This document shows, piece by piece, positions 30,301 to 36,300 of a stretch of DNA of 64,000 nucleotides. How positions within the stretch are numbered: the stretch's first letter is position 1; every line of letters begins with the position of its first letter. Below the pieces are notes generated by a model. It was not told where the DNA came from. It searched no databases and was given only the letters and a program-made list of their open reading frames with translations. Made by a program: the position numbers and the translations under genes. Origin of the DNA: Apostichopus japonicus (Eukaryota > Echinodermata > Holothuroidea > Aspidochirotida > Stichopodidae); the NCBI RefSeq assembly GCF_037975245.1, contig NC_092580.1, positions 20,818,501 through 20,882,500 of the forward strand, given 5' to 3'.

Positions 30301-33300
30301 TTTGAAAATCTTTATTTCATGTTCAACTTAAATATGGCATAGATTTCTTTTAGTCTTCAATGTTGATTATGAATATGCATAGACAGTACTTGTAACATTA
30401 ACATAATCTTTGTTCATGCATCTCTAGATCAGATTGCCATAAGATGAACGCGGGTCGAGGGTGAATTTGGGTGGGGGAGGGGGTAGATTTTTTTGACATG
30501 TCTGACATTACGTTTTGATAGCTCGATATGCTGTTCAGAAAAGTTGAGGTTAGATTAAAAATGATCCTGACTTTTGGGCATATTTGATATAATTATAAAA
30601 TTATTGAATTAAAGCTTTGTCTTTTTGTTTTGTCATCGTTAGGATTGTTGGGCCGCACTGAATTTTGCTAATGAAGAAGAAGCGAAACAATTTGGTGAAG
30701 TCGTGCAACATCGGATCGACATCCGAATGAGGAAGAAAGGTACACTGAGGCATCAACTCTTATTTGCAAGTTCATAACATCGGTTATTCTATATCTGTGA
30801 ACCGAAGTACAAGGTTCGAACATAAGGAACTAAATTGATCATAAACACATTAACCCCATGCAATACCGATGTGTGATTACTCTACGGTAGATTTTGAACA
30901 ACAAAATCCTGTCCGACGATGGTGTATCAATGCTTCCGTGTAGTTTGAAGGACTCTAGACTCTAGGACTCTATACCAGTGTAAACAATAGCTCTGTTAAC
31001 ATCTACGCGATTAGTGTATTTGACAATTAGGCGATCTGTTTACTCTTGCTTCATCTTGCCAATGACTTTATCTGTTGAGGAAGTTTACTCCCAATATGAG
31101 GGGGGGGGGGGGGTACCCAGTTTAATGGAACCGTACCTGTAGTAGATGGACCGGTTGTAATAGTTCCTTCTAACTCATCGGACCTTGAGTAAAATAAATG
31201 GACGGAAAATATCAAGTGGTAACTTGCACGGATATTATAATACATTGACAATTGTAGTGTATTAAACAAAAGAGTTACTTATAATATCTATTTAACCGTT
31301 ATAAGAAAATATTAACAAGAAAATAGCTATCACATGTATTGTAATCACAAGTTCGAGATGGGACTTGGGAAGGCGGGTCGGGGGGGGGGGGTGGGAGGGG
31401 GGATGGTGAGGGGGAAGGGAGATGAAATTCTTTCATAACCTATACAGGGTAAGAGGGTACAAATTTGCCAATATTGATATCAGGACGGAGGGTGTCTGAT
31501 AGCCGTTAATTTCCTCTCATAACAAACAAAGCTAAGAGTTAGCATATATAGTGGTACTTTCAGAGTACAGAGTTGGATTAGCATATGCAATGTTTATAAA
31601 GCTATATGGTCATAGTGGTGTTTTCACTGACACTGGCGATGATTATGGAGTTACGGGATCTCTTCGTGTCACTAACATATAAAAGAGGTCAAGGCAGACT
31701 AACTAATTAAAGCTGTAAAAAAAGTATGTTGGTCTGAAAACAATCTCTAAATCTCTATCTGTCAAAATAATTGTTGACGTTATTATAACATTCTCTTCCA
31801 CAGAGAAACGAAAGAGTAATGCTGGTCAAGGCAAGCTGACACCGGCATCGCCACAGACACCGGCACCGGCGCTAGCTCCCTCTCCTGTCACGGTGTTAGG
31901 GACACCTGTCACGAAGACGCCAAAGATCGGTCAGTGCAAGATTATCCATTCATTCGTTAAGGAACGCCCTGTAAGCCCAGAATCCCACGCATGACGTCAA
32001 TATGATTCTATATTAAGGCTGTATAGCCTAATGTTAGTTATACATTCCGTACAGTACTAGCGCCGGCAGCGATGGGGTGTTACCTGCAGAATATGTTTTT
32101 GAATTCAGCCAAATGCTACTTCAACTTCATTCATGTATAATTATTTATAATGTCATGGTACTGGGGAATATCATCACTGCACTTGGTGGTCTGCACGAAA
32201 ACGTGTGCATTGACGATACTATCCTACTGATCGGTAGTTTGGGTACGTACCTGGTAATGGTATAGTAGTAGGTTAGGCTCACGCTGTAGTTGTGACGTCA
32301 TGCATGGGACTCTCGGCTTACAGGGCGTGAACATTAGTTAACGCGTATAACGTATAGTTGTAATGTTATATTCGCATGCGGAGTGGTCGATGACAAAGAT
32401 AAAAATACAATAAGAACTTGAACTATGAATAATTATACCTCCAGTTAACATCGACTTAGGACATTGTTGTGGTTACGCAGAATATATAAAGAAACATGGC
32501 TTATTCATTGGCTGACACAATTTCTTCAAGGATGGCCCAGACAAGTAAGGTTGGATAAAGGGTTATCGGAAATATTGGAAATAAAGGTTGGTGTGCCTTG
32601 GGGTGGGGGGGGGGGTCCATTATATGCTATATTATTTACTATATATACTGATGAAATTAGGTCAAACTCACACATTTCTATAACAAAATATGCCGATGAT
32701 ACTGCTGTATCATGCACAATTCATAAGAGCTCTGTTGAAACTGACCAATGACATTTTCAGTGTTCTTTAAATGACATAGTTCCAACATGTGACCGCAAGA
32801 CTTCATTGCGTAACCCCCCCCCCCCCCTCAAAAAATAAATAAAGGAAATTCGTTTTTTTAAAATAAACCATATAACATGAAGGTCTCATTCTATCAAGGT
32901 CGCAACGTATTATTATTATTGAGGGATCTGATGTGGCTAGAACCTCCAAAACTGAGTACTGGGAGTATACAGCGACGACAGTTTGACCTTTTCTTGCAAA
33001 GCATCAAGGTATTAAAAAAGTATATTACAAAGTATCTAGTGTGGCTTACGTTGTGTCTTTCTTTATCAAAATTGCTAAGGAAAATGTTTTCAATTATATT
33101 ATACAACCTGGCACATGTGATCTATACAGTACCTGTCTGGTACCATTTTATATTGCAAAAAAAGCAAAGAAAAGTAGAATGAAGTTTCTTAAATACACAT
33201 CAGCTATATTAATTTAGAATACAATATACTTTTAGAAAAAGTAAATGCTGCTGCAAGACCTGAGTTTACAAGAATGTAAGTATACATATAAAAAAATTCT

Positions 33301-36300
33301 TACGCTCACAGGCACATTTATAATATCCAACCCAACCTCGTGTGAATCCTCAGATTTAAAGAAGGAAACAACTGTGCCATTGTTCAAGTGTTTTCAAGTT
33401 GTAGTGTAATATGTTGTTCCTTCTTTTTATTTCCTTCCAGTATACATATAAAATTTATAGAGAGGAGTCATATAATACCTCAACAAGAAGAATAACTCAT
33501 ATCAAAGTTGCTTTTTTTTAAGATGATAGGATACCAAACAGTCCAAGAATAACTAATATAAAAGGGGAGAAAATTTCAAGATGATAGGATATCATATAAA
33601 ATACATCTTCTAATACAAAAGTTAATACATAAAACGATATAACAAGCAGACTTCAACAAACATTCTAAGTGCTCGAATGGAATGTATAAAGCAGCACGGT
33701 AAATAAATGAGTTGCTGTAAACCTACGTTCAGTATTTTGTGGGGATTACTTAGATTTCCGCTCGATTTGTGCAGGAGACTTTCTAGTACAGTATACAAAA
33801 GGTTATTTTGATCACTGTAAATCTTATTAGCCATTCTTGTAAACTCAGGTCTTGCAGCAGCATTTACTTTTTCTAAAAGTATATTGTATTCTAAATTAAT
33901 ATAGCTGATGTGTATTTAAGAAACTTCATTCTACTTTTCTTTGCTTTTTTTGCAATATAAAATGGTACCAGACAGGTACTGTATAGATCACATGTGCCAG
34001 GTTGTATAATATAATTGAAAACATTTTCCTTAGCATTTTGGTTAAAGAAAGACACAACGTAAGCCACACTAGATACTTTGTAATATACTTTTTTAATACC
34101 TTGATGCTTTGCAAGAAAAGGTCAAACTGTCGTCGCTGTATACTCCCAGTACTCAGTTTTGGAGGTTCTAGCCACATCAGATCCCTCAATAATAATAATA
34201 CGTTGCGACCTTGATAGAATGAGACCTTCATGTTATATGGTTTATTTTAAAAAAACGAATTTCCTTTATTTATTTTTTGAGGGGGGGGGGGGGTTACGCA
34301 ATGAAGTCTTGCGGTCACATGTTGGAACTATGTCATTTAAAGAACACTGAAAATGTCATTGGTCAGTTTCAACAGAGCTCTTATGAATTGTGCATGATAC
34401 AGCAGTATCATCGGCATATTTTGTTATAGAAATGTGTGAGTTTGACCTAATTTCATCAGTATATATAGTAAATAATATAGCATATAATGGACCCCCCCCC
34501 ACCCCAAGGCACACCAACCTTTATTTCCAATATTTCCGATAACCCTTTATCCAACCTTACTTGTCTGGGCCATCCTTGAAGAAATTGTGTCAGCCAATGA
34601 ATAAGCCATGTTTCTTTATATATTCTGCGTAACCACAACAATGTCCTAAGTCGATGTTATACCTCCAGTTAACATCGACTTAGGACATTGTTGTGGTTAC
34701 GCAGAATATATATCAGTATACACTGGCCATATTATTACCATGGAAACAGACAGATATGGCCGTAGGAGACACGATTTGTTTCATAACCATCTCCACCTCC
34801 TACAAGTTGGGACTTTGGCTCGGACAATATTAGTAGCTAAAATCCGCCACTTTGCGCATTACCAACTATAGTTTGGTAAAATTCTCTTGTTTACATCACC
34901 CCCCCCCCCTCTCCCCTTCCCTTATACTTTCAAAGCAAAATGTGCCCATGGTCCTGCATGGAGTTCTTACGAAAACAAATTGAATGGTGCGACGCTAATT
35001 TCTGTGATTTCTGTCTTCATAATACAAGTTATGCTATACATTTTTATTTGTAAATATATAATATAGTGTTGCATTGTAATTCACCAAGGTCCCAAACTAA
35101 GAACCGCTAGCGTCGCGCTCTAATAATCTGAATAGACGGATTTAGAAGCCATTCCGATTTATTTGCATCGGTGTAGATAATTGCACCTTTTGTTTTTCCA
35201 GACGAAAAGGCCAAAAATAGTAAAAGTGCTAAAAAGAAGAAAGGAAAGGAGAAAGAAAAGAAGAAACTAACAACAGCTGATATCTCCAGACCGGCTAATT
35301 TTATGTAAGTTCAACATTTCGAAGGTATACGCTGCATGCTGGTCAAACTATTGGCTATATGTAATGTATTTATTATTAGACACTATATGATTCTCTCGCA
35401 AATGAATTCGTATCTGTAATAAATTTCAAGAGTCGATTTCATTTCTTTCAGACACATGCAGCACGTAGGTAGTAATCCAGCGACCTCTTATAAACCCGAC
35501 AAACAGGTAAGCCGTTTTCCCGGATCTGAATGTTTCAATCATTATCATTTATTTCCGAATAGCGCCCGTCTATTAGATACACAAATACATATAAAGGGCC
35601 ATGATTTGCTTGTAGCAACAGTCGAACACAGGAACGGCTTTGGTTGCCGTATACATGAAATGGTTGCCACATACACGAAATGGAAGCTGCATGCAGATCT
35701 GTCTCGTATTTCATTTTATTTCTTGGCAGATAACATATATATGTGTATAACCTTATTAATTACGTATTCAATGGAGCGTTTCTTGTTAATATTGATGTAT
35801 ACGCTTTTGTTATACATTTATGCAAATTCAAAATCTGTTCTACATTGAACCCCACGACAAGCCTTACCACTGGAAGATATTGGATAGGGCGGACGGCCTT
35901 TAACTGCATAATCCAATTATTTTACTTCAATTACATAACGTAAATTATACTATTTTTCTATTACTTTGCATAGTCCCTTTTGTTTAAGGGGTTTATTTCC
36001 CGGCCTCTTATTTTTTTATTTTTTTTTTGAAACTTGAAGTTTGAATCAAAGTTTTACTGTTTAGTCAGCGATGTCTTCAAAGAAGATATATACGGGGACA
36101 CGGAATTAATTCTGGATACCTAACCCTTCAAGCCGTTACCGTCTGCCACTGTTTACACTGCTCACTGCAGGGCACTGGGTCATGCCCATCCACCATTTGG
36201 GGGTAGATAGCGCTTTCCTCGCCTGTCTCTGAGGGTGTTGAGTCCCCTCTCTTTCCCCCCAATAAAAAGAGGGGACAGTTTCCCGGCTCCCTTTTCGTCG

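Follow-up and report, generated by a model that had tools for sequence, protein, structure and literature searches.

How did two almost identical stretches of DNA come to lie in opposite orientation within a single intron of a WASP-type gene in Apostichopus japonicus? The window analyzed here is a whole stretch of 64,000 nt (assembly GCF_037975245.1, contig NC_092580.1, positions 20,818,501–20,882,500, forward strand), in which the original prediction had described a recent inverted duplication of a decayed long interspersed nuclear element (LINE), with two arms of about 830 bp around a spacer. The inverted repeat is confirmed in the assembly at 32446–33276 and 33832–34659, where global alignment of the first arm with the reverse complement of the second gave 825 identical columns out of 831. 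Of the six unlike columns, homopolymers account for three (two in a run of G, one in a run of C), and the others are substitutions within 7 bp. From the structure of the locus, we hold that this feature probably arose not by transposition but when a break was repaired with template switching.

Judged by comparison with the rest of the 671.6-Mb genome, the arms are not a LINE insertion, as had been claimed, and come instead from the interior of a dispersed DNA transposon, neither terminus of which they include; this transposon carries a dead fragment of LINE reverse transcriptase. A search with the left arm (40 scored of 293 candidates) returned 41 matches, 38 of them at other places with 90%–97% identity; the remaining three were the two window arms and one copy of T, a 43-bp stretch of flank described below. 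The 20 best of these 38, hereafter the siblings, were retrieved twice, the flank being about 1.2 kb the first time and about 4.2 kb the second (9.2 kb per locus). In all 20, the right copy of the window aligns as one stretch, with arm and so-called spacer joined in a single orientation, and the alignment extends to 33279–33297 in 19 siblings and to 33534 in one (L025). The siblings have terminal inverted repeats beginning TCGTCCCCG, and both termini were located in 18 of the 20 (up to four mismatches allowed), separated by 3.6–4.5 kb in 17 and by 6.6 kb in one. Among these 18, the flanking dinucleotides are TA at both ends in 8, TT at both ends in another 8, AA in one, and unequal (TT/AT) in one. 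The window copy has neither a terminal inverted repeat nor a short target duplication and corresponds to sequence internal to the siblings.

The LINE fragment lies inside the DNA transposon in the siblings as well. Its match to RVT_1 in the arm is below the Pfam cut-off (E 6.5e-4, 19.9 bits against 29.6) and comes with a YADD motif; the YADD frame was found in 19 of the 20 siblings, ending at the same place in all 19, and the motif was not found in the twentieth (L030). An exact 24-mer test for the shared stop matched only 5 of the 20, and the reading of the frame itself (19 of 20) was used in its place. Because the frame ends in common across the siblings, the decay is a property of the family and was inherited. 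The LINE was accordingly dead before the duplication, as proposed, although its broken frame dates no decay at this locus. An inverted duplication of a LINE that had resided locally was rejected, since the same sequence lies within a dispersed transposon with terminal inverted repeats.

The layout of the insertion departs from two arms around a spacer (Table 1). On the plus strand, the flank is followed by D (the first copy of a perfect 56-bp direct repeat), 788 nt of forward-oriented transposon, the dinucleotide TA, 1338 nt of transposon in reverse (33279–34616), T' (the inverted copy of T), and D again, for a net insertion of 2224 bp in the intron. Both transposon copies begin at the same position, and their unequal inner ends (788 versus 1338 nt) meet tail to tail; the arms are thus as described, while the spacer belongs to the right copy and the inverted repeat runs on into 43 bp of flank. 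T is present three times, directly at 32446–32488, inverted at 34617–34659, and directly at 34670–34712, and was not found elsewhere in a genome search that skipped very common words. The segment T'-TACCTCCAGT-T is a hairpin with a 43-bp stem and a 10-nt loop, and an exact stem of this length has a rough chance expectation of 3e-15 in 64 kb, which rules out coincidence. The left junction of flank and transposon has a 1-nt overlap (A) with sibling sequence, the junction of T' and the right D has a 3-nt overlap (TTA), and the inner junction (33276/33279) has no overlap, only the 2-nt filler.

Table 1. Features of the inverted repeat and of the intron that contains it, in window coordinates.
Feature	Position	Strand	Remarks
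Left D (56-bp direct repeat, exact)	32433..32488	+	outside the transposon; last 43 bp are T
T (43 bp), flank outside the transposon that forms the outer end of the inverted repeat	32446..32488	+	from sequence comparison
Left transposon copy (788 nt)	32489..33276	+	LINE sense +; reverse-transcriptase motif with YADD
Left-arm substitution cluster	33066..33072	+	three bases changed (33066, 33068, 33072); right arm has the family state
Filler TA (2 nt) at the tail-to-tail junction	33277..33278	.	absent from both transposon contexts (siblings vs window)
"Spacer", continuation of the right transposon copy	33279..33831	-	single copy in the window; stops inside the transposon
Right transposon copy, the portion within the arm	33832..34616	-	LINE sense -
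T', inverted copy of T	34617..34659	-	from sequence comparison
Right D (56-bp direct repeat)	34657..34712	+	first TTA common with the end of T'
WASP-like intron holding the insertion	31928..35201 (approximate)	+	boundaries read from splice-like signals

An inverted repeat that extends into the flank, combined with a 56-bp direct repeat, indicates copying during break repair. The piece is without the terminal inverted repeats that stand at both ends of 18 of the 20 siblings and was therefore not moved as a whole by a transposase, and the inverted copy holds 43 bp of flank known only from this locus and was therefore copied from joined flank-transposon sequence. Since no termini were moved, no LINE 3' end lies beside the direct repeat, and the joint of flank and transposon was itself copied, we read the feature as the outcome of break repair. 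From the order of segments, the junctions, the donor family, and the absent termini, all of them directly observed, we infer a break, the copying, and an order of steps. A break in the intron would have left overlapping ends, both retaining D. The left end would have been extended by about 0.8 kb or more copied from an internal stretch of an ectopic transposon, joined through the 1-nt overlap. The right end (...TAA) may have found a 3-nt match in the newly copied T-transposon sequence, in inverted orientation, either within the same molecule or in the sister, and, paired there, would have copied the 43 bp of flank and 1338 bp of transposon. Joining of the two extended ends tail to tail, with the 2-nt filler, would complete the arrangement.

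The locus fits an already known kind of event, templated break-repair insertions, in that it holds a copy of sequence existing elsewhere (38 other places), the ends of the insert are unlike the termini of the element itself, and the junctions with the break ends show little or no homology (1 nt, 3 nt, and a 2-nt filler). In a study by Yu et al. (PMC11724301), breaks in yeast repair mutants are reported to gain two fragments of one locus, inverted and with 0–4 bp of overlap with the ends, and local fold-back inversions at breaks to occur in the wild type too. The window resembles these distant inverted insertions, which were counted in the repair mutants, in its two inverted ectopic pieces, its short end overlaps, and its flank copied by fold-back, whereas its pieces overlap by 788 nt, its flank is both inverted and directly repeated, and it lies in an animal genome. 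Fold-back priming leading to inverted duplication has likewise been described for inversions near natural inverted repeats; these pass through dicentric chromosomes, whereas the 2.2-kb duplication in the window was closed locally (PMC10622511). A literature search for inverted transposon capture of the present kind returned nothing with the terms used, which does not establish its absence.

Several observations weigh against break repair. The pieces, at 0.8–1.3 kb, are far longer than the inverted fragments of yeast, for which the medians are 50 and 150 bp, and their tail-to-tail junction is without the 2–11 bp of microhomology common to inverted fragments there (PMC11724301). No sibling identical to the window piece was found, the best over the spacer being about 99% identical (40 of 260 candidates scored). 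The 56-bp repeat could alternatively be the target duplication of an earlier insertion.

Whether the arrangement arose at once or in stages is a separate matter, and here the age of the duplication is informative. The arms are unlike only at two homopolymer lengths and one three-base cluster, and the duplication therefore appears young, as had been predicted, or the arms have been homogenized. Compared with the 20 siblings, after dropping alignment columns in which more than 5 of the 20 were gapped, the piece has five private substitutions outside homopolymers (six including the C run) in about 1334 sites, one of them common to both arms (plus one in the C run of the right arm) and four in the spacer, with no significant difference between arm and spacer (Fisher P 0.24). 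If the duplication were as old as these private changes, 6–7 arm-specific changes would be expected; one clustered event is seen, and the probability of one or fewer is about 0.007 (using six private changes) or about 0.02 (using five), if one assumes that the private changes originated at this locus rather than in an unsampled donor and that the arms underwent no gene conversion with each other. On that assumption the duplication is younger than the private changes, which favors two steps; an unsampled donor or conversion between the arms would also explain the scarcity of differences. Capture of the piece first, with duplication by template switching later, seems to us a serious candidate at somewhat below even chances, and production of the whole in one repair event a more doubtful one.

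The cluster itself is confined to the left arm; repair synthesis may have introduced several wrong bases together, or the consensus may be in error. A genome search with the 26-mer that bears the three changes hit a single place at zero mismatches, and allowing up to two mismatches adds one other (C16), where one of the changes is present and the remaining two positions are as in the family. A cluster copied whole from another family member was thus rejected, the full 26-mer being unique, and possible local templates were 7–8-mers only, judged unconvincing with no control run.

Among the alternatives, an artefact of assembly or library preparation, in which chimeric reads or misassembly turned one piece into an inverted pair with a repeated flank, survives best. 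The original prediction was right that it must be considered, and we judge it unlikely. The sparse differences between the arms, two homopolymer runs and a cluster spanning 7 bp, would suit it, and the exact 56-bp direct repeat could mark the point at which the assembler re-entered true sequence. Fold-back reads are put at about 0.55%–0.6% of nanopore genomic libraries in one report, which also cites another with 1%–4% and in some cases 20%–30% (PMC12870357). The same report gives virtually no fold-backs for one PacBio HiFi set, though the sequencing technology behind the present assembly may differ. A simple fold-back mirrors one molecule, while the inner ends here are unequal and separated by a 2-nt filler, the site is interior to a 35.5-Mb contig, and the three-base combination of the left arm is unique in the genome, even if a consensus error could create one.

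A second alternative gives the repeat a role: read-through of WASP pre-mRNA would yield double-stranded RNA, which would be diced to small interfering RNAs (siRNAs) against the family or edited by ADAR. That the intron RNA forms a long hairpin would be expected from the inverted arms, as the original prediction held, and the predicted folding energies are -555 kcal/mol for the inner 1111 nt (the inner third of the pair) and -79.9 kcal/mol (z -17.9) for the flank hairpin of 131 nt. Possible targets exist in the 38 other copies found, some pairs within the family being 98%–99% identical, and matches to the Argonaute/Piwi domain (11 matches) lie at three loci in the genome. The plan is that of Mu killer of maize, where partial inverted duplication of a transposon has given a locus that can, on genetic evidence, silence the family, and a hairpin transcript made by read-through was proposed (PMC3440606). 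Both loci have a partial inverted transposon duplication beside a transcribed gene and family copies elsewhere as targets. Mu killer, however, keeps transposon ends and transposase sequence, whereas the window piece is without ends and duplicates a captured LINE fragment. The same text describes short antisense transcripts in silencing plants and read-through from the flanking gene as the mark of non-silencing ones (PMC3440606), which speaks against read-through being sufficient. Moreover, any inverted repeat folds on paper, only parts of this one were folded, and both arms lie within one intron that is normally excised. We therefore hold a functional hairpin locus to be improbable.

A foldback-type mobile element with long inverted arms, inserted with a 56-bp target duplication, would account for an exact direct repeat outside a near-perfect inverted repeat, and we give it only a slight chance. 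Such arms should be dispersed as inverted pairs, yet none of the 20 siblings has an inverted partner longer than 300 bp within its fetched 9.2 kb, and of the 38 other matches, the two closest on opposite strands are separated by 54 kb. Nor do the arms stop where the family does, since their outer 43 bp were recovered at no other locus. With a second copy absent from the 20 fetched loci, this candidate is largely refuted. Target-primed reverse transcription leaves the 3' end of a LINE abutting the direct repeat, and a LINE insertion with 5' inversion (twin priming), to which the reverse-transcriptase sequence in both arms and the target-duplication-like direct repeat might point, was rejected as exceedingly improbable on orientation and inverted flank, because the LINE fragments point towards each other, with their 5' sides outermost and their 3' sides joined internally, so that no 3' end abuts the repeat, host flank is included in the inverted part, and the fragment sits inside a DNA transposon in the siblings.

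The assignment of the host gene to the WASP type, also made in the original prediction, is supported by a WH1 exon at 29250–29417 on the plus strand (Pfam E 2.4e-8), the only one of 11 stop-free pieces to pass the cut-off. Matches below it were RVT_1, WH2 (plus strand, E 0.074), and three unrelated families, and five of the 11 pieces had none; a proline-rich frame on the plus strand is without a Pfam match, as is the CRIB exon, which was assigned by eye. The proline-rich frame and the WH2 match add to the case for a WASP-type gene. Upstream of the insertion, 31964–32328 is a small element-like unit with 36-bp arms that are 92% complementary. Of the 25 matches listed for its right end (about 70 bp), 22 are at other places, and the unit, which shares the intron with the insertion, is probably a short inverted-repeat transposon. 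Elsewhere in the window, long AT-rich tracts, mostly of AT dinucleotides and some palindromic, occur at 20056–20257, 37665–37780, and 41947–42067.

Within the transposon family, the eight TT-flanked siblings appear to sit in one shared surrounding repeat. The first 10 bases of the 3' flank are common to L033–L035, L037, L040, L041, L043, and L046, and all of these except L037 share the same 5' flank too, so that the transposon appears to be nested in another amplified repeat at these eight loci. Beside the sibling insertion at L031, an open frame of 151 amino acids (6775–7230, minus strand) presumably resembles a FLYWCH-type zinc-finger protein, to judge by eye.

The insertion most likely has no selected function, and if it is no more than a mutation scar its importance is modest. 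It nonetheless allows the steps of template-switching repair to be read from sequence, with the donor family known, the flank copied both ways, and the junctions placed to within a few bases. Should it be real and transcribed, it would offer a naturally occurring hairpin directed at a transposon family that is dispersed in dozens to hundreds of copies. An animal counterpart of Mu killer, in which a recent accidental capture yields a pre-mRNA hairpin that feeds RNA interference and silences the family in trans, is a long shot; were it true, the locus would show how a single accident of repair can set off the silencing of a transposon family.

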